From: Bacteroidales bacterium
GTDB lineage: Bacteria > Bacteroidota > Bacteroidia > Bacteroidales > VadinHA17
Length of the DNA: 41,887 nucleotides
Reading direction: 5' to 3'
Assembly (NCBI GenBank): GCA_024762655.1
Contig: JANTHB010000026.1
Location: 1-41,887 of the forward strand
In this document: positions 7,408 through 41,673 of the stretch, piece after piece
Layout of the letters: each line of letters opens with the position of its first letter
How positions within the stretch are numbered: position 1 is the stretch's first letter
Position numbers and translations under genes: made by a program
The notes under the pieces: generated by a model
Told to the model about the DNA's origin: nothing
The model's database searches: none
Seen by the model: the letters and a program-made list of their open reading frames with translations, nothing else

Positions 7408-7598
7408 TGTAAGCAGGAACTTGCAATCGCCAAATTTTCGCAAAAGTAAATCATCAAAAAATGGCAAAAGCAGATCACCATTTTTAAGGGAATACATCTT
7501 TTATTACACCTCCTCCAAAACTTTCTTCAAAAACTTTACCTCTCCTCAGGAGATGTATACATAAATCCCCGGGGATTTTTTCAGATTAAAATATATGT

Positions 7599-7642
7599 AT
7601 TTAAATAAATATTTAAATATGCCTTTAAATATTTATTTAAAT
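7599..7642. repeat. AT-only 19-bp inverted repeat downstream of GH3 gene
   Basis: Perfect 19-bp arms (ATTTAAATAAATATTTAAA and its complement) around the loop tatgcc. It lies 38 bp past the stop of the GH3 gene on the minus strand and could end transcription. A 21-base word that begins just upstream of the left arm and runs into it (7593-7613) recurs inverted at 39976-39996, next to another palindrome. Confidence 0.8.
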
Positions 7643-12050: not shown

Positions 12051-13094
12051 ATGAAAAAGGTAAGTATCAAAGACATCGCAGAAAAAGCCAATGTGTCCAT
12101 TGGGACGGTAGACCGTGTCATTCACAATCGTGGCAGGGTATCGGAGCGTACCCGGGAGAAGGTTCTTGCCATATGCCGGGAGATGGATTACGAGCCCAAT
12201 GTTCTGGCACAGCGGCTGGCCTCAGACAAGGCTTTTGTTTTTGCGACTTTTACACCGAAGCCCAAAAGAGACAATTCTTACTGGAAAACGCCCCTGGACG
12301 GGATCAGAAAAGCAGCCGACGAACTGTCGGGTTACCGGGTGCGGGTAAAGTCCTATTTTTACGATCAGGAAAATGAAGAATCGTTCAGGCAGGAGTCCCT
12401 TAATATTTTACTGGAGAAACCGGACGGGGTCCTGATCGCTCCGCTGTTTCACCGCGAAGCCCGGGATCTGGCCCGGAAACTGGAATCCTACGATATCCCC
12501 TTTGTTTTCATTGACTCCAAAGTGGAGGACACCCGGTACCTCAGTTATTTCGGACAGGATTCCTTTCGCAGCGGATATCTTGCCGGCCGTTTGATCTGGT
12601 TTCACCTGAAAAAGAAAGGAGAAGTGATCATTGTCAATTTCTCCTCCGATCTGGAAAACCATGTACATCTGAAAAACAGGGAGAAAGGATTGAAGCAGTT
12701 TATGGAAAACCACCATTTCAGGGGAACACTGACAAGTCTGACCATAGATCCCAAAGAAGAGCTGGTGCTTACACACACCCTTTATGAAAGACTGCATCAC
12801 AAAACGCAGGGCCTGTTTGTCACCTCTTCGGCCCATAAGGTGGCCCGGAGTCTTCAGAAAATCGGCAAGGATAATGTCCTTTTCGTCGGTTATGACCTGA
12901 CACCTGACAACGTAACGTATCTGAACAAAGGGATTATTGATGTTCTGCTGTGTCAGAAACCCATGGCCCAGGGCCACGAAGGGATTATGGCTCTCTTCAA
13001 CCATCTGGTCAGAAAGAGAAAGGTGGAAAAAAACCACTCCATGCCCATAGAAATTGTGGTAAAGGAAAATTACCAGGATTATTCGGATTTTTAA
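12051..13094 (+). CDS. LacI/GalR-family transcriptional regulator
   Basis: A 347-residue regulator. The N-terminal helix-turn-helix is canonical: [35 protein letters not shown] at residues 4-38, followed by the hinge region [12 protein letters not shown]. The rest is a periplasmic-binding-protein-like effector domain (residues about 60-340), with the usual [28 protein letters not shown] and [27 protein letters not shown] segments. It probably senses a sugar or sugar acid and controls the downstream operon, plus itself, through the palindrome at 11978-11999. It is the first gene of the co-directional run to 25337, 60 bp before the SDR gene. The ligand is not deducible, but the context suggests an intermediate of uronate breakdown. 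Confidence 0.93.
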
Positions 13095-13154: not shown

Positions 13155-14006
13155 ATGAAACCACTTAATTTTGATGATCTGAAAGGAAAAGTTTGTGTTT
13201 TGACCGGGGGTGGAGGAGCCATCGGTGCTTCGCTGGCGGAGTTTCTGGCGCGCAGGGGTGTACGCATGGCCATTCTGGACCTGAACGGGGCACGTGCTGA
13301 GGAAGTGGCTAAACAGGTCAAACGTGAAACGGGCACTCCTGCCGTCGGTATCAAAACCAATGTCCTGGAGAAAGAATCCCTTGAGCAGGCCGCAGAGGCC
13401 ATTCATAAAGAATTCGGAAAGGTGGATTTTCTGATCAACGCTGCCGGAGGCAACTCTCCCAAGGGCACTACGGAGGCGGAGTTTCTGGAATCGGTATCGG
13501 AACAGGATCTGGAGAAATCCATCTATGGTCTTGACATAGAAGGGTTCCGCTGGGTCTTTGACCTGAACCTTTCCGGCACCCTGCTCCCTACGCTGGTATT
13601 TACCAGGGATATGCTGGATCTGGGCAGCGGCGCCGTGGTTAATTTTTCTTCCATGAGTGCCCTGCGTCCTCTGACACGTGTGGGGGCCTACTCCGCCGCC
13701 AAAGCCGCCGTCACCAACCTGACCGAGTGGCTGGCCGTACATCTGGCCAAAAAGAACATCCGCATAAACGCCGTAGCACCGGGATTCTTCGTGGGAGAAC
13801 AAAACCGCTTTCTCCTTTTTGATGAAAAAACGGGAGAACTATCTCCCCGCGGCAACAAGATCATTATGAACACTCCCATGGGAAGATTCGGAGATTACGG
13901 GGAGATCCACGGCACGGTAGCCTTCCTGCTCTCAGGCATGGCCAGCTTCATTACGGGCGTGACCGTTCCGATTGACGGAGGTTTTAACGCTTACTCGGGC
14001 GTGTAA
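13155..14006 (+). CDS. SDR-family oxidoreductase, probable D-mannonate oxidoreductase (fructuronate reductase)
   Basis: A 283-residue classical short-chain dehydrogenase. Nucleotide-binding TGGGGAIG at residues 17-24, NAAGG at 95-99, catalytic Ser in NFSSMSA (about 165-167), and Tyr179/Lys183 in YSAAK; it ends in the typical TVPIDGGFNAYSGV. The overall pattern, including the long insert before FDLNLSGTLLPTLVF and the APGFFVGEQNRFLLFDEKTGELSPRGNKII loop, matches SDR proteins annotated as D-mannonate oxidoreductases that replace the unrelated polyol-dehydrogenase-type UxuB. The reaction would be D-fructuronate + NAD(P)H to D-mannonate. The uronate isomerase encoded later in the same operon would supply the substrate. 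The alternative is another sugar-acid dehydrogenase such as a gluconate 5-dehydrogenase. Family call certain; substrate moderately likely. Confidence 0.85.
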   Translation: MKPLNFDDLKGKVCVLTGGGGAIGASLAEFLARRGVRMAILDLNGARAEEVAKQVKRETGTPAVGIKTNVLEKESLEQAAEAIHKEFGKVDFLINAAGGNSPKGTTEAEFLESVSEQDLEKSIYGLDIEGFRWVFDLNLSGTLLPTLVFTRDMLDLGSGAVVNFSSMSALRPLTRVGAYSAAKAAVTNLTEWLAVHLAKKNIRINAVAPGFFVGEQNRFLLFDEKTGELSPRGNKIIMNTPMGRFGDYGEIHGTVAFLLSGMASFITGVTVPIDGGFNAYSGV

Positions 14007-14013
14007 AATCCCA

Positions 14014-14108
14014 ATGTCGGATACAGTTAAAGTCAACGGATTTCCATGAAGGAGAAAATCACACCTGAACTTCAAACAAAAGGATTTACGGAATCATATC
14101 AGAGATAA
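14014..14108 (+). other. Two tiny overlapping ORFs between SDR and PFK genes
   Basis: An 11-codon frame (MSDTVKVNGFP, 14014-14049) ends in a TGA that overlaps the ATG of a 20-codon frame (MKEKITPELQTKGFTESYQR, 14046-14108) by the ATGA arrangement seen at other junctions in this operon. They may be a leader, the remnant of a lost gene or chance. Nothing else is recognisable in the 125-bp gap before the phosphofructokinase. Confidence 0.25.
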
Positions 14109-14131
14109 GGCACTTAAAAGACTTTACGAAC

Positions 14132-15424
14132 ATGAAAGGAATGAAAAAAAATGTTATCGTCGCACAGTCCGGAGGGCCTTCTCCGGTCATCAACAACTCC
14201 TTACGCGGGATCATTGAGGCCTGCAGGGCGTATCCCGGTCATTTCGGCACACTCTATGCCGGATGGCATGGGATCGAAGGGGTGCTGAAAGAAGAATTAT
14301 TGGATCTGTCGGCCCAAAAAGAGGAAGAGATTGCGTTGTTGAAAAACACTCCGGCAGCAGGCAGCATCGGCACCTGCCGTTACAAGCTGAAAGAGCATCA
14401 GGAGAAGGATTTTGAACGTATTGTGGAAGTATTCCGTGCGCATAATGTAGGATATTTTTTTTACATCGGGGGTAACGACTCTCAGCACACAGCTTATAAA
14501 GTCAGTGAGATCTGCCGGGACAAAGGGTTGGATGTCATTGCCGTGGGCGTTCCCAAGACGATTGACAATGATGTGGGTGACAGCGAGTTCAAGCTGATCG
14601 ACCATACACCCGGCTATGGCAGTGTGGCTCGTTACTGGAGTCACATTGTGCAGAACGCAGAAGAGGAGAACCGGGGTTCTTCGCCTGCCGACCCGGTGCT
14701 GGTATTGCAAGCCATGGGCCGCAAGATCGGATACATTCCGGCGGCAGCCCGTCTGGCAGACCCCGAAAGAAAAACGCCTTTGCAGATATACCTGGCTGAG
14801 TCGGGCGTCAGTCTGCCCGAACTGGCAGACCACGTCAACGACCAACTGAAAAAGGACGGCCGTTGTCTGGTGGTGGTGAGCGAAGGCTTTGATGCAGGAG
14901 ATCAGGGAGAGGTGAAGGACTCGTTCGGACATACCAACTTCGGAGCTACTAAAATAACGGTGTATCAGACCATCATCAACTACCTGAACGAAAAAGGACT
15001 GAAAGCCCGGGGAGCCGCCCGTGGTCAGGTGATGGGCACCGACCAGCGTGATACGGCTATCTATGCCTCTACCATAGACCTGGATGAAGCTTATCAGGTG
15101 GGGAAAAAGGCGGTAGAGATCGCCCTGCATGACGGCAACGGCTGGATGGCCACGATCCTGAGGGATCCGGGACCCGTCTACACCGTACACTACGATAAGG
15201 TGCCGCTGGAAAAAGTAGCCCTTTCCGAACGTACTTTCCCTGACAAATGGATCGCCGGAAACAGGAGGGATGTGACGGATGCCTTCCTCGAATACGTCCG
15301 GCCCCTCATCGGCAACGACTGGCCCTCCGTACCCCTGGTGAACGGCATTCAGCGGTTCACCCGCTTCGAACCCATCTTTGCCGAACAAAAACTGAAAAAG
15401 TATATCCCTCAGGCCTACGCTTAA
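14132..15424 (+). CDS. PPi-type 6-phosphofructokinase
   Basis: A 430-residue phosphofructokinase, longer than the ~320-residue bacterial ATP enzyme and like the group II/III pyrophosphate type. The phosphoryl-donor motif is GGNDS (residues 113-117) rather than ATP-type GGDGS, and the catalytic motif is PKTIDND (141-147), whose Lys is typical of PPi-dependent enzymes in place of PGTIDND. Substrate-binding features include GRKIGYIPAA and VSEGFDAGD. It reversibly phosphorylates fructose 6-phosphate with pyrophosphate in the cytoplasm. Some PPi-PFKs also phosphorylate sedoheptulose 7-phosphate, which would fit its place in an operon with transketolase and 6-phosphogluconate dehydrogenase. A second in-frame ATG at 14141 is a possible start. 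The next gene in the operon is separated from it by an inserted four-helix-bundle gene. Confidence 0.93.
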   Translation: MKGMKKNVIVAQSGGPSPVINNSLRGIIEACRAYPGHFGTLYAGWHGIEGVLKEELLDLSAQKEEEIALLKNTPAAGSIGTCRYKLKEHQEKDFERIVEVFRAHNVGYFFYIGGNDSQHTAYKVSEICRDKGLDVIAVGVPKTIDNDVGDSEFKLIDHTPGYGSVARYWSHIVQNAEEENRGSSPADPVLVLQAMGRKIGYIPAAARLADPERKTPLQIYLAESGVSLPELADHVNDQLKKDGRCLVVVSEGFDAGDQGEVKDSFGHTNFGATKITVYQTIINYLNEKGLKARGAARGQVMGTDQRDTAIYASTIDLDEAYQVGKKAVEIALHDGNGWMATILRDPGPVYTVHYDKVPLEKVALSERTFPDKWIAGNRRDVTDAFLEYVRPLIGNDWPSVPLVNGIQRFTRFEPIFAEQKLKKYIPQAYA

Positions 15425-15428
15425 AATG

Positions 15429-15848
15429 AATTTTGAATGATGATTTATGATTTATGAATAAATAAATTTTTAATTATGAAAACTTTCGATAATTATGATC
15501 TGGAAGAAAGGGTAATTGATTTTGCAGTTATGATAATAAAAATTGCAGATAAAATCCACAATTCTTTCCGGGGAAATAATCTTAGCAATCAATTGGTTCG
15601 ATCAGGAAGTTCTCCTGCAATACATTATGGTGAAGTTCAATCCTCAGAATCTTTAAAAGATTTCATACATAAGATGAGTGTATGTCTGAAGGAATTACGT
15701 GAAACTTATATTTCATTAAGGATAATCAAGAAGTTAGACTTTAATGGGCTTAACGAAGAAATTGATATTGCAATTAAAGAAAACCTGGAACTAATATCCA
15801 TTTTTTCAAAAGCCATAAAAACCTCAAAAAACAAAAACATTCAAAATT
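15429..15848 (+). mobile_element. IVS-like insertion with 11-bp inverted ends carrying a four-helix-bundle gene
   Basis: The AATTTTGAATG at 15429-15439 recurs as its exact reverse complement at 15838-15848, framing the small gene at 15476. Inside and beside these ends are short A/T repeats: 'atgattt' units at 15437-15456 and 'ataattc' units at 15857-15877. Base composition is much more A/T-rich than the neighbouring operon genes. Its position between a phosphofructokinase gene and a HAD gene that otherwise belong to one transcription unit suggests an insertion. Confidence 0.5.
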
Positions 15849-15853
15849 CTTAA
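15476..15853 (+). CDS. Four-helix-bundle protein (S23/IVS-encoded family)
   Basis: A 125-residue protein (MKTFDNYDLEERVIDFAVMIIKIADKI...). The sequence fits the four-helix-bundle family first known from intervening sequences in 23S rRNA genes: helix 1 with LEERVIDFAVMIIKIADKIHNS, the conserved NNLSNQLVRSGSSPAIHYGEVQSSES region, then FIHKMSVCLKELRETYISLRIIKKL and a last helix ENLELISIFSKAIKT. The DGR accessory protein Avd has the same fold, but no reverse transcriptase or repeat cassette is nearby. The family forms ring-like homopentamers and its function is unclear. The gene is A/T-rich and framed by inverted repeats inside a metabolic operon, so it looks recently acquired. Its 3' end overlaps the right inverted repeat. 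Confidence 0.9.
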   Translation: MKTFDNYDLEERVIDFAVMIIKIADKIHNSFRGNNLSNQLVRSGSSPAIHYGEVQSSESLKDFIHKMSVCLKELRETYISLRIIKKLDFNGLNEEIDIAIKENLELISIFSKAIKTSKNKNIQNS

Positions 15854-15883
15854 CTCATAATTCATAATTCATAATTTTCTACC

Positions 15884-16768
15884 ATGGATCATCAACAAAT
15901 GCTTAAAGACTTAAAACCCGAAAAGGATTTTTTTATCGGCATTGATTCGGACGGATGTGTGTTCGACTCGATGGAGCCTAAACAGAAAGAATTTTTCTGT
16001 CCCAATGTGCTTCGGTATTTCGGGTTGTTACCGGTTTCGAAAGTTGCCCGTGAGACCTGGGAGTTTGTCAATCTTTACTCCCGCACCCGTGGCATCAACC
16101 GTTTCCTGGCCCTGTTGGAATTTGCACGTTTACTGTCTGACCGTCCCGAGGTGGCCTCCCGCGGCCTGGAGGTCCCCGATTTCTCATCGTTGAGAGCCTG
16201 GACCCGGAAAGAAACCAAACTGGGGAATCCCACCCTGAAGAAATATGCCTCGCACACCGATGATGCCATGATCCACCGGGTGCTGGAATGGTCGGAGAAG
16301 GTAAATGAAGAGATCGGCATGTGGGTAAAAGGGCTCAAACCTTTCGCCGGAGTACGCGAATCCCTGGAAATCATCCGGGACAAGGCCGATGCCATGGTGG
16401 TCTCACAGACTCCGGTAGAAGCCCTGGTGAGAGAGTGGGAAGAAAACGGCATAGCAGGCTTCGTGCGAATCATCGCCGGCCAGGAATACGGCACCAAAAC
16501 GGAGCACCTGGCCCTGGCCGCCAAAGGGAAATATGCAGATGACCACATCCTGATGGTAGGAGATGCTCCGGGCGATATGAAAGCAGCCCGCGCCAACGGG
16601 GTGCTGTTCTTTCCCGTCAACCCCGGCCATGAAGAAGCATCATGGGAACGATTCCACAAGGAAGCGCTGGGCAGGTTTTTCGAAGGCACTTATGCCGGAG
16701 ATTATGAGGAGACACTGGTGGAAGAATTTAATACGTATCTACCGGAAGAACCGGACTGGAAAAAATGA
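15884..16768 (+). CDS. HAD-superfamily hydrolase (probable phosphatase)
   Basis: A 294-residue cytoplasmic protein. HAD motif I is DSDGCVFDS with nucleophile Asp21 and acid/base Asp23; motif II is the Ser in VVSQTP (about residue 168); motif IV is GDAPGD at residues 226-231. A helical cap lies between motifs I and II (residues about 30-140), as in type C1 HAD phosphatases such as phosphoglycolate phosphatase and beta-phosphoglucomutase. It hydrolyses a phosphoester or moves a phosphoryl group on a small metabolite. The place in a uronate/pentose-phosphate operon suggests a sugar phosphate or a damaged metabolite. It is not a kinase fold, so it does not obviously fill the missing gluconate kinase step. 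The start at 15884 lies 30 bp past the inserted gene. Confidence 0.85.
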   Translation: MDHQQMLKDLKPEKDFFIGIDSDGCVFDSMEPKQKEFFCPNVLRYFGLLPVSKVARETWEFVNLYSRTRGINRFLALLEFARLLSDRPEVASRGLEVPDFSSLRAWTRKETKLGNPTLKKYASHTDDAMIHRVLEWSEKVNEEIGMWVKGLKPFAGVRESLEIIRDKADAMVVSQTPVEALVREWEENGIAGFVRIIAGQEYGTKTEHLALAAKGKYADDHILMVGDAPGDMKAARANGVLFFPVNPGHEEASWERFHKEALGRFFEGTYAGDYEETLVEEFNTYLPEEPDWKK

Positions 16769-16893
16769 ATTCTCAACCTTCAAATCCCATTCAGGCACGA
16801 TGACCGGTTTTTGTAGTTTGGTGCTTTTTGGGGCTACCGGAGATCAGGGAGTGAGGTTGTTTTTTGAAATTGTTCGTTTTAATTTTTACACGT

Positions 16894-18180
16894 ATGATCT
16901 ATTTTGAAGCCGGTTCTGAAAAAACCGTTTTAAGCCCTGATGATCTCAGGAAAGGTCTCTATGAAGCGTTGGACAAGGCCGGCAGGTTTCACAAGGTACT
17001 GGCCATCCCGCCCGACATGACACGTTTCCATTCTCGTGCCGGCGAGCTCACCCGCTATGCCCGGGAATATTTCGGCCGGGCTCTCACCGACATCCTCCCG
17101 GCACTGGGCACCCACACGCCTATGACGCCGGAACAGATCAAAGCGATGTTCGGGGATGTCCCGCTCTCCCTGTTCCGCGAACACAACTGGCGCAGGGATG
17201 TCATTACCCTGGGCCAGGTTCCCGGGGATTATATCCGTGAGATCACCCGTGGAAAACTCTCCTTCGACTGGCCGGCCCAGGTGAACCGTCTTCTGAAGGA
17301 AGGAGGGCACGACCTGATTCTTTCTCCCGGGCAGGTGGTGCCCCACGAAGTGATCGGCATGGCCAACTACAATAAAAATATTTTTGTGGGTACAGGGGGA
17401 TATGAAGGAATCAACAAAAGCCATTTTCTGGGTGCTGTCTATGGCATGGAGCGGATCATGGGACGGGCTGACAATCCGGTGAGAGCCGTACTGAACAAAG
17501 CTTCTGAGATGTTTGGTTCCCTGTTGCCTCCGGTATTGTATGTTCTCACCGTGATCGGCAGGGACGAGAAAGACCGGCTGGTTACGCGCGGTTTGTTTAT
17601 TGGCAATGATGACGAGACCTTTTACCGGGCTGCAGAGCTTTCTGCCAGCGTCAATATTAAACTTCTTGACAAGCCGCTGAAAAAGGTGATTGTATATCTG
17701 GATCCTCAGGAATATAAAAGCACCTGGCTGGGCAACAAAGCCATCTACCGCACACGCATGGCCCTGGCTGATGACGGGGAGCTGATCATTCTGGCTCCCG
17801 GAGTGCGGGAGTTCGGCGAGGACAGGGAGATAGACCGGTTGATACGCAAATACGGTTATTTCGGTACGGACATTACCCTGAACCAGGTGGAAAACAACCG
17901 TGACCTGGCTGACAATCTGGCTGCTGCCGCCCACCTGATTCACGGATCCTCCGAAGGAAGATTTCACATCACATACTGTCCCGGGCACCTCACCAGAGAA
18001 GAGGTGGAACGTGCAGGTTTCCGCTATGGCAACCCTGCTGAGATGGAGAAAAAATATAACATTCATATCCTGAAAGACGGATTCAACAGCCTCCCCCACG
18101 GGGAGGAGATATTTTTTATTTCCAATCCGGCCCTGGGATTATGGGCTGAAAAAGAGAAATTTCTAAACCCATCCCTATGA
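16894..18180 (+). CDS. LarA-superfamily nickel-dependent racemase/epimerase; candidate D-gluconate 2-epimerase
   Basis: A 428-residue protein, close to the 424 residues of Lactiplantibacillus LarA. ATG 16894 is preferred over an upstream TTG. Motifs: PPDMTRFHSRAG (39-50), LGTHTPMT (71-78), PHEVIGM (His151), YNKNIF (Lys161) and NKSHFLGA (His177). His151, Lys161 and His177 have the same spacing (10 and 26 residues) as LarA His174, Lys184 (which tethers the nickel-pincer nucleotide) and His200 (a nickel ligand). LarA homologues include lactate, malate and other hydroxyacid racemases and D-gluconate 2-epimerases (D-gluconate <-> D-mannonate). The operon supplies mannonate on one side (UxaC, SDR) and uses 6-phosphogluconate on the other (Gnd), which favours gluconate 2-epimerase. 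The stop overlaps the next start by ATGA. The cofactor genes larB, larC and larE are not in the window. Confidence 0.88.
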   Translation: MIYFEAGSEKTVLSPDDLRKGLYEALDKAGRFHKVLAIPPDMTRFHSRAGELTRYAREYFGRALTDILPALGTHTPMTPEQIKAMFGDVPLSLFREHNWRRDVITLGQVPGDYIREITRGKLSFDWPAQVNRLLKEGGHDLILSPGQVVPHEVIGMANYNKNIFVGTGGYEGINKSHFLGAVYGMERIMGRADNPVRAVLNKASEMFGSLLPPVLYVLTVIGRDEKDRLVTRGLFIGNDDETFYRAAELSASVNIKLLDKPLKKVIVYLDPQEYKSTWLGNKAIYRTRMALADDGELIILAPGVREFGEDREIDRLIRKYGYFGTDITLNQVENNRDLADNLAAAAHLIHGSSEGRFHITYCPGHLTREEVERAGFRYGNPAEMEKKYNIHILKDGFNSLPHGEEIFFISNPALGLWAEKEKFLNPSL

Positions 18181-19175
18181 AACAGATCAACTGGGGTATC
18201 ATTGGTTGCGGCAAAGTAACCGAGAAAAAGAGCGGGCCTGCCTTCAACAAGGTGGAAGGCTCCCGGCTGGTCGCTGTGATGCGGCGTACGGCAAAGCTGG
18301 CCGAAGGCTATGCCCGGCATTATGGAGTACCTAAATGGTATGACAAGGCCTCTGACCTGATCCGTGATCCGGAGGTCCATGCCGTGTATATTGCTACGCC
18401 TCCGTCAACGCATGCGCAGTATGCCATCGAAGCTATGCGGGCTGGTAAACCGGTATATGTCGAAAAACCCATGGCCCGTACCTATAAGGAATGTCTGGAA
18501 ATGAACCGTGTCTCGGCAGAGACCGGTATGCCGCTCTTTGTGGCCTACTATCGCCGGCGACTGCCGGGGTTCCTGAAAATCAAGGAATGGCTGGAAACCG
18601 GAAAGATAGGCACCCCCAGACTGGTATCCCTGCATCTGTTGTTGCCTCCCCGCCGGGAGGACCTGGACCGTCACAACCCCCCCTGGCGCGTGATCCCTGA
18701 GGTATCGGGCGCCGGCTATTTCTATGACCTGGCTTCTCACCAGTTCGATATTCTGGATTATTTTTTCGGTCCCGTAAAAAAGACGCAATCGGTGGTCACC
18801 AATATGGCCGGATTGTACGAAGCAGAAGATACGGTGGTGGCTGATTTTACTTTTGACACAGGGGTCCTGGGCCAGGGTATGTGGCATTTTACCGCCGCCC
18901 CGGAAGACAAGACCGATACCCTGACCATTTACGGGTCGGAAGGATCCATTCATTTTTCCACCTACGAAACCATCCCCGTAAGGCTGATCACCGGAACGGG
19001 TACCACGGAATATCGTTATAAGAATCCGGAGAATATACAGTTCAACCTGATCAAGACCGTAGTGGAAGAGCTGCAGGGAAAAGGCAGGGGATTGTGTCCG
19101 AGTACGGGGGTATCGGCTGCCCGCACCAACCGTGTGCTGGAGGACATAGTCAAAACCTATTATGCAAAAAAATGA
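18177..19175 (+). CDS. Gfo/Idh/MocA-family NAD(P)-dependent oxidoreductase
   Basis: A 332-residue protein with an N-terminal Rossmann fold (WGIIGCGKVTEKKSGPAF, residues 5-22) and the family's EKPMA motif around residue 100, whose Lys is catalytic. The C-terminal alpha/beta domain has GAGYFYDLASHQFDILDYFFG, carrying the conserved Asp/His pair, and ends with the IVKTYYAKK helix. Relatives include 1,5-anhydrofructose reductase, xylose 1-dehydrogenase and glucose-fructose oxidoreductase. It is joined by ATGA overlaps to the LarA-type gene before it and to pdxB after it, so it is made together with them. A role on a sugar or sugar acid of the same pathway is likely, for instance oxidising an aldose to its lactone or feeding another uronate, but this is inference. 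Confidence 0.9.
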   Translation: MKQINWGIIGCGKVTEKKSGPAFNKVEGSRLVAVMRRTAKLAEGYARHYGVPKWYDKASDLIRDPEVHAVYIATPPSTHAQYAIEAMRAGKPVYVEKPMARTYKECLEMNRVSAETGMPLFVAYYRRRLPGFLKIKEWLETGKIGTPRLVSLHLLLPPRREDLDRHNPPWRVIPEVSGAGYFYDLASHQFDILDYFFGPVKKTQSVVTNMAGLYEAEDTVVADFTFDTGVLGQGMWHFTAAPEDKTDTLTIYGSEGSIHFSTYETIPVRLITGTGTTEYRYKNPENIQFNLIKTVVEELQGKGRGLCPSTGVSAARTNRVLEDIVKTYYAKK

Positions 19176-39931: not shown

Positions 39932-40247
39932 GAGGCATAGGCATCAAAAAATATAAATATTTAAATATGTATTTTAATATTTATTTAAATACATATTTCT
40001 TATCCGCAAGTGAAAATAATAGATTTGATTTTTTTGAACCATTCCGTTTGAAAAGCTGAAAAATAAAGAAATTTCATTATCACACCCCGTCAAAAACTTT
40101 CTCTGAAAGTTTTGATCTCATCCTGAAGGAGAGAAAAGCGAACCCTTTGGGCTTTTGATTTAAGAAAATACCGTTGTTTACTCTTTAAGAATTTATTACA
40201 TTTACCCTTGGTATGTAGGCTTTCTTTCATCCATTAATTTTAGACGT
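39932..40247. other. 316-bp intergenic region with AT-rich palindrome
   Basis: No gene seen. It contains the palindrome at 39963-39998, a second hairpin AAAACTTT-ctctg-AAAGTTTT at about 40093-40113, and the segment 'tcatcctgaaggagag'. The second part resembles 7505-7555 downstream of the GH3 gene in content and order of short words. A -7-like TACATTTA before the Gfo/Idh gene (about 40197) is a weak promoter candidate. Confidence 0.5.
39963..39998. repeat. AT-rich inverted repeat downstream of C45 gene
   Basis: Perfect 12-bp arms AAATATGTATTT / AAATACATATTT around a 12-base A/T loop. A 21-base word inside (39976-39996) is identical, inverted, to 7593-7613, so the two palindromes belong to one family 32 kb apart. 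Confidence 0.75.
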
Positions 40248-41598: not shown

Positions 41599-41673
41599 CG
41601 GGGTGTAGCGCAGCCCGGTTAGCGCGCGTCGTTCGGGACGACGAGGTCGGGAGTTCGAATCTCCCCACCCCGA
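41599..41673 (+). tRNA. tRNA-Pro (anticodon CGG)
   Basis: A 75-base cloverleaf. Acceptor arms CGGGGTG and CACCCCG (41599-41605 / 41666-41672) with discriminator A; D-arm with the GCGCAGCCCGGTTAGCGCGC pattern; anticodon stem CGTCG / CGACG around loop TTCGGGA, giving anticodon CGG and codon CCG; T-arm with GTTCGAATC. CCA is not encoded, as the bases after the discriminator are CAA. Confidence 0.97.

Follow-up and report, generated by a model that had tools for sequence, protein, structure and literature searches.

A gene for a four-helix-bundle (4HB) protein lies in a protein-coding operon of a Bacteroidales bacterium, within the 41,887-nucleotide stretch of DNA that was analyzed here (the window). 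We consider it probable that this feature, judged from comparison of sequences, is one copy of a compact mobile element in which the 4HB gene is enclosed by reverse-complement arrays of 7- to 9-bp units. As is general for mobile elements, gene and arms occur as one unit at unrelated sites and relatives have empty sites; from this we infer mobility. The large 4HB/S23 family has a patchy distribution, and its genes are familiar mainly as inserts in ribosomal RNA genes. The rRNA intervening sequence (IVS) is an established kind of element, and what is added here is the matched tandem-repeat arms and a wide non-rRNA population.

The 4HB gene and its repeat arms in the window

The open reading frame (ORF) at 15476-15853 (125 aa, ATG to TAA) matches TIGR02436 ("four helix bundle protein"; cutoff, 24 bits) and, barely above the cutoff of 33.8 bits, PF05635 (23S_rRNA_IVP), which bears out the original prediction of an IVS-type 4HB gene. 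Its placement between co-directional enzyme genes (PPi-type phosphofructokinase [PFK] and HAD, all on the + strand) and its foreign-looking composition, both part of that prediction, also held. The GC content is 27% for the element and 29% for the 4HB ORF versus 53% for the neighbors (window, 48%), and only 0.5% of 378-bp windows reach a value as low as that of the ORF. The 4HB gene is the sole ORF between the arms, where no transposase gene is found, and no known nuclease, integrase, or polymerase is encoded in the element. There is no rRNA gene at the element; the only Rfam match in the window is a tRNA at 41599-41673. The host operon (13155-19175) encodes a mannonate-oxidoreductase-like SDR, a PPi-type PFK, a HAD hydrolase, an epimerase, and a Gfo/Idh/MocA oxidoreductase and probably specifies a sugar-acid pathway. 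Its putative hexonate epimerase is of the nickel-pincer type (NF052594, 637.7 bits).

Table 1. Features of the element and its host genes (window coordinates)
Feature	Position	Strand	Basis or remark
PFK gene, diphosphate-fructose-6-phosphate 1-phosphotransferase type, upstream host gene	14132..15424	+	NF010675, 371.6 bits
Left arm, short tandem repeats ATGAATTTTGAATGATGATTTATGATTTATGAAT	15426..15459	+	Directly after PFK stop codon; TRF period 7 at 15440-15457
Exact 12-bp inverted-repeat core, left copy GAATTTTGAATG	15428..15439	.	Sequence match 12/12
4HB (S23 / 23S rRNA IVS protein family) gene	15476..15853	+	TIGR02436, 63.7 bits; PF05635, 34.9 bits
Exact 12-bp inverted-repeat core, right copy CATTCAAAATTC	15838..15849	.	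Within 3' end of ORF
Right arm, ATTCATA heptads, 5.4 copies	15839..15876	+	TRF; reverse complement of left arm over 15839-15872
HAD hydrolase gene, downstream host gene	15884..16768	+	PF13419; adjoins PFK gene in relatives without the element

The gene had been predicted to lie between exact 11-bp inverted ends. The inverted match is real, but its exact part measures 12 bp and serves as the core of a longer, imperfect inverted repeat of 34 bp (27/34 positions; 15426-15459 and 15839-15872). The alignment score of this repeat is 38, compared with a mean of 18 and a maximum of 32 in 2000 dinucleotide shuffles (p = 0.0005). Both arms are built of approximately 7-bp tandem units, and the A/T repeat tracts noted earlier on the two sides correspond to their heptad part (TTTATGA on the left, ATTCATA on the right); the right arm shares the last 15 nt of the 4HB ORF. 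The RNA of the window copy is predicted to be more stable than shuffled sequences (z = -2.9), with a centroid fold that pairs the arms. Chance or AT-richness as the source of the arms is ruled out by the shuffles, by mismatched loci, and by control ORFs.

Empty sites in the same operon of relatives, which the original prediction had proposed to look for, were found: PFK and HAD are adjacent without a 4HB gene in all ten relatives with both host genes on one locus. These relatives are too divergent to reveal a target duplication for the window copy, and several have a hairpin of another kind between the two genes. In L009, L012, L017, L018, and L019, only a short, plain gap separates the genes. 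In L007 and L008 (same genus), L010, and others, the gap holds a different short-repeat structure (e.g., ATGCAGATCATGCAGATCA..AATCTGCGTGCACCTGC) and no 4HB gene; thus, the junction has apparently been hit more than once. Loss in the relatives could replace insertion after the species split as an explanation, but the gene is absent from ten of them.

Across the taxonomic family, 4HB genes are present in 53 of 59 members (1 to 24 each), a patchy distribution of 0 to 24 copies per genome. The window's genome has five, so that further copies, for which the original prediction had proposed a search, do exist, but not with the same ends: the literal ends AATTTTGAATG are absent around the other four. 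What recurs in other copies is not the literal 11-bp repeat but an inverted array of 7- to 9-bp units particular to each copy (AGGCTAAGGC..GCCTTAGCCT in L002 and GAATATCGAACAAGGATT..AATCCTTGTTCAATATTC in L004). Judged by the refuting condition set with the original prediction (no inverted ends around other copies), its literal form would fail, but its structural form holds. At L001, the inverted arrays are G-rich and their units no longer match. This array structure was invisible in the initial reading of the sequence because only one copy was available.

Many arrays of 7- to 11-bp units without a gene are also found in intergenic regions of the window's genome (G000; L118:8565-8728, L119:13899-14236, L126:6846-6876, L130:9863-9928 and 12945-13036, and L131:18001-18189). 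Their units include CTTTGACT, GGTCATTCAAT, TCGTCACT, and GAATGAT (x27), and several of these arrays resemble the arms of 4HB elements in relatives. A survey of 400 kb of this genome for gene-less arm pairs retrieved many single arrays and few clean inverted pairs.

Matched arms around 4HB genes in many lineages

The combined set comprised 169 usable 4HB loci from some 20 bacterial groups, drawn from the family, from the 80 best matches of one scan over 84,980 species genomes, and from a plasmid sample (14 loci, including cyanobacterial plasmids); 463 ORFs served as the control. Groups represented in the scan include Bacteroidota, Acidobacteriota, Chloroflexota, Cloacimonadota, Patescibacteria, Planctomycetota, Proteobacteria, Firmicutes, Desulfobacterota, Neomarinimicrobiota, and one Methanophagales archaeon. 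Loci above the 99th percentile of the control ORFs accounted for 84% of the family sample, 75% of the scan sample (other lineages), and 93% of the plasmid sample (p about 1e-69), while inverted arrays surround 1% of control ORFs from the same genomes. When the left flank was compared with the reverse complement of its own right flank (83 loci), the median score was 41, versus 19 for flanks of different loci. Repeat periods of 7, 8, and 9 dominate, with 52% of 340 flanks periodic at the threshold versus 1.5% of control windows. Arm units differ from locus to locus, yet both arms of one locus match. Read inward, the arms are rich in G and poor in C at 130 of 138 loci (130:8). Copies without detectable arms make up 16% (family) to 25% (other lineages). 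No fixed terminal inverted repeats common to the copies were found; arms are alike only among related proteins.

Among the 14 plasmid copies, arms in direct rather than inverted orientation occur only in Pseudanabaena galeata (L154:1335-1503 and 1864-1980; AAAGCTA and AAAGCCA units). On the Methanophagales archaeon contig (L234), the inverted repeat around the 4HB gene is weak and its score (29) marginal. One query against 50,697 phage records gave no 4HB match, and phage carriage is not supported.

Where both neighbors could be assigned, the 4HB gene was co-directional with both at 94 loci and opposed to both at 12 (p = 6e-17). This bias may arise either from selection, if antisense copies are silent or harmful, or from the insertion process itself. 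Mismatches within the arms showed a slight G-U excess over the A-C type in the first 75 loci (207:165), which vanished with stricter scoring of 139 loci (200:196). Because G-U mismatches are not favored, there is no sign of pairing kept at the RNA level, and upkeep of arm pairing by that route was rejected.

Association of arms with protein and probable insertion events

The analysis covered 77 pairs in which the 4HB proteins are ≥60% identical and the neighbors are non-homologous. Arm sequence was shared in 62% of these pairs, compared with a mean of 7.5% and a maximum of 23% after relabeling (5000 trials; p <= 0.0002). Because the left arm of one locus was matched against the right arm of the other, a shared 5' leader does not mimic the result. 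TCGGCAG units, for example, occur at L049, L051, L073, L075, and L079, and GTCTTGCAG units at L076, L083, L089, and L097. These data point to cognacy between arms and protein; part of the association could be co-inheritance without recognition. The near-identical genes of L049, L073, and L075, which occupy different sites in two genera, differ at 10-27% of fourfold sites. The host PFK gene differs at 64% of fourfold sites between those two genera, one of which was represented by a different species. The 4HB gene of these loci appears to have spread between genera. Where computable, 4HB pairs gave dN/dS values of 0.03-0.37, indicating purifying selection and thus a protein in use.

On cyanobacterial plasmids, filled and empty versions of the same site could be aligned. 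At site 1, the element of Trichormus variabilis ATCC 29413 (plasmid C) and Scytonema (L160/L253) is placed after AAAAAGTAAT, and the empty sites of Nostoc linckia NIES-25, Microchaete NIES-3275, and Aulosira NIES-50 (L246-L248) read AAAAAGTAATTAACA (97-98% identity). The filled copies have GTAAT on both sides of the insert, a 5-bp target duplication. Such a clean duplication is seen at site 1 only and is absent at sites 4 and 7, where insertion occurred at the 3' end of the upstream ORF and about 8-25 bp of target were replaced. Site 7 is the cas10-cmr3 junction, which is empty in PCC 7002; further copies interrupt cas6-cas4 and tra operons. Site 3 is filled in two plasmids, has nothing in L251, and in L252 holds a gene-less hairpin of the GGGAAC unit that is also present in the filled copies. 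At site 6, L259 has only a left arm. Gene-less versions are found at junctions filled elsewhere (L252, L250, and L007/L008). The cas6-cas4 gap contains a 4HB element in Anabaena sp. 90 and a different gene-less inverted repeat, GTAGGTTGGGTTGACG..CTTAACCCAACCTAC, in Dolichospermum UHCC 0315A (L250:840-1080).

Relation to known systems and competing explanations

The 23S rRNA IVSs with an S23p ORF (Coxiella and Leptospira) resemble the window element in their protein family, in having the ORF in the loop between complementary ends, and in their patchy distribution; the Coxiella IVS is also of similar size (428-444 nt), with a 28-bp stem at its borders that is cut by RNase III (PMC4990558). The ORF of IVS elements may once have served mobility, and 25 years after discovery the function and origin of rRNA IVSs were called unclear (PMC4990558). 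In that paper the ends are terminal inverted repeats; tandem-unit arms, arm-protein co-inheritance, and a wide non-rRNA population are not described there. The window copy has the IVS traits of an S23/IVP-family ORF and complementary ends able to form a stem but, unlike the IVSs, is located in a protein-coding operon and not in an rRNA gene. A copy on a plasmid of Azospirillum lipoferum 4B (L162) lies within a large-subunit (23S) rRNA gene (2529 bits) and has repeat-array arms (GAGGACGGATGACAGAGGACGG / CCGTCCTCTGTCTTCTGTCATCCGTC); thus, the anatomy of an rRNA intervening sequence is the same as that of the operon copies. The best reading is that rRNA IVSs are a special case of the compact 4HB element. 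In the open-licence papers searched, no connection of 4HB genes with tandem-repeat arms was found.

Several short repeats invite comparison with the arms. Cyanobacterial STRRs are short tandem heptanucleotide repeats. TAACTGA heptads in Beggiatoaceae, cyanobacteria, and Bacteroidetes have been described without a mechanism of spread (PMC4679880), and the repeat classes of the trnL intron P6b loop underwent several replacements in Nostoc (PMC4476775). All of these resemble the arms in their short period (7 for TAACTGA), intergenic location, patchy occurrence in the same phyla, and suspected horizontal spread but have been described with no accompanying gene and, for the most part, as direct repeats. 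The TAACTGA and trnL P6b repeats may be gene-less relatives of 4HB arms.

In REP/BIME-RAYT systems, a gene lies between inverted copies of its cognate repeat, and gene-less copies occur elsewhere. The 4HB elements share this arrangement; however, the 4HB protein is not a Y1 transposase, the arms are tandem arrays with fast-changing units, and Y1 genes are not needed. Unlike a DDE/TIR insertion sequence, the element has neither a transposase gene nor fixed terminal inverted repeats. S23 proteins and Avd, the accessory protein of diversity-generating retroelements (DGRs), have a common pentameric four-helix-bundle fold, and sequence relatives of the 4HB proteins with solved structures include PDB entries 2GSC and 2RLD. 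In contrast to the DGR setting, no reverse transcriptase is encoded in the window's genome.

For the window copy, we propose that the element would have inserted into the PFK-HAD junction, in the sense direction, after the species split from the sampled relatives. The pentameric 4HB protein would recognize the units of its own arms, in hairpin DNA or RNA, and bring in a host enzyme (nuclease/polymerase or replication fork) to move the element. The arms would be kept matched by slippage and template switching, one arm being copied from the other, and units would therefore change rapidly between loci while matching within a locus. Such copying is probably at the DNA level because the mismatches lack the G-U preference expected under RNA-level selection. 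Persistent insertions would be those that follow host transcription and lie where a hairpin is tolerated, namely, at gene junctions or at the tips of rRNA helices. RNase III could cut this hairpin, as is known for rRNA IVSs, and by the same analogy its processing of the operon message is plausible.

More tentatively, and with somewhat less than even confidence, these elements may form a new class without a recognized nuclease, present in many bacterial phyla and perhaps in archaea. S23/4HB would then be a mobility factor specific to the repeats of its cognate tandem arms, rRNA IVSs would be copies that landed in rRNA, and cyanobacterial and Bacteroidota short tandem repeats would be gene-less or decayed copies. 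The matched arms around 4HB genes, the association of arms with the protein and not the site, and the empty sites make three questions testable at once (the role of the S23 protein, the spread of IVSs, and the origin of many bacterial short tandem repeats) and offer a biochemical test, namely, binding of the 4HB protein to its own repeat.

The frequency of gene-less and single arrays in genomes with 4HB elements, and at junctions that such elements occupy, raises the question of whether the hairpin arrays are themselves the spreading unit (by slippage, template switching, or a host process), with the 4HB gene a passenger that enters by recombination between like arrays. The matching of arms at the DNA level without G-U bias and the repeated hits of the same junctions by different hairpins would fit as well. 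We nevertheless regard this explanation as unlikely, since inverted arrays accompany 1% of control ORFs versus 75-93% of 4HB genes, arm units go with the protein at unrelated sites, and the protein is under purifying selection. A non-mobile host gene, whose surrounding RNA hairpin controls expression or permits RNase III excision from the operon message, would agree with the 94:12 sense orientation, with the predicted fold (z = -2.9, arms paired in the centroid), and with the cleavage of rRNA IVSs by RNase III (PMC4990558). It is very unlikely given the empty sites in relatives, the range of 0 to 24 copies per genome, the lack of a G-U excess in arm mismatches, and the near-identical genes at unrelated sites with matching arms. 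RNA cleavage may still occur as a by-product of the presence of the element.

Finally, the element could be non-autonomous and owe its movement to a reverse transcriptase, in the manner of DGRs with their Avd protein, or to a Y1/REP-associated transposase that acts on the hairpin ends. The fold shared by S23 proteins and Avd speaks for such a helper, as does the presence of Y1_Tnp genes, which occur in 40 of the 59 family genomes and give 6 matches in the window's genome. However, reverse transcriptase (PF00078) was detected in just 14 of the 59 genomes and in neither of the two richest in copies (G053, 24 copies; G044, 20 copies), and G011, G070, and G074 (96-98% complete, 5-6 copies) have neither reverse transcriptase nor Y1_Tnp. 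Both enzymes were accordingly rejected as partners; neither is necessary as a standing one, and the explanation as a whole is highly improbable. Past activity of a helper since lost is possible.

Two further observations concern repeats and sites of insertion. 4HB elements lie upstream of an RND efflux transporter in L024, L038, L040, L044, L046, L060, and L076. At least three 4HB protein clades, in different genera and with different arms, are represented at this junction, an apparent insertion hotspot; the L046 copy has an in-frame stop. The window also contains two A/T-only arrays of the 12-bp unit ATATATATTTAA (7593-7642 and 39953-39998), located 32 kb apart.
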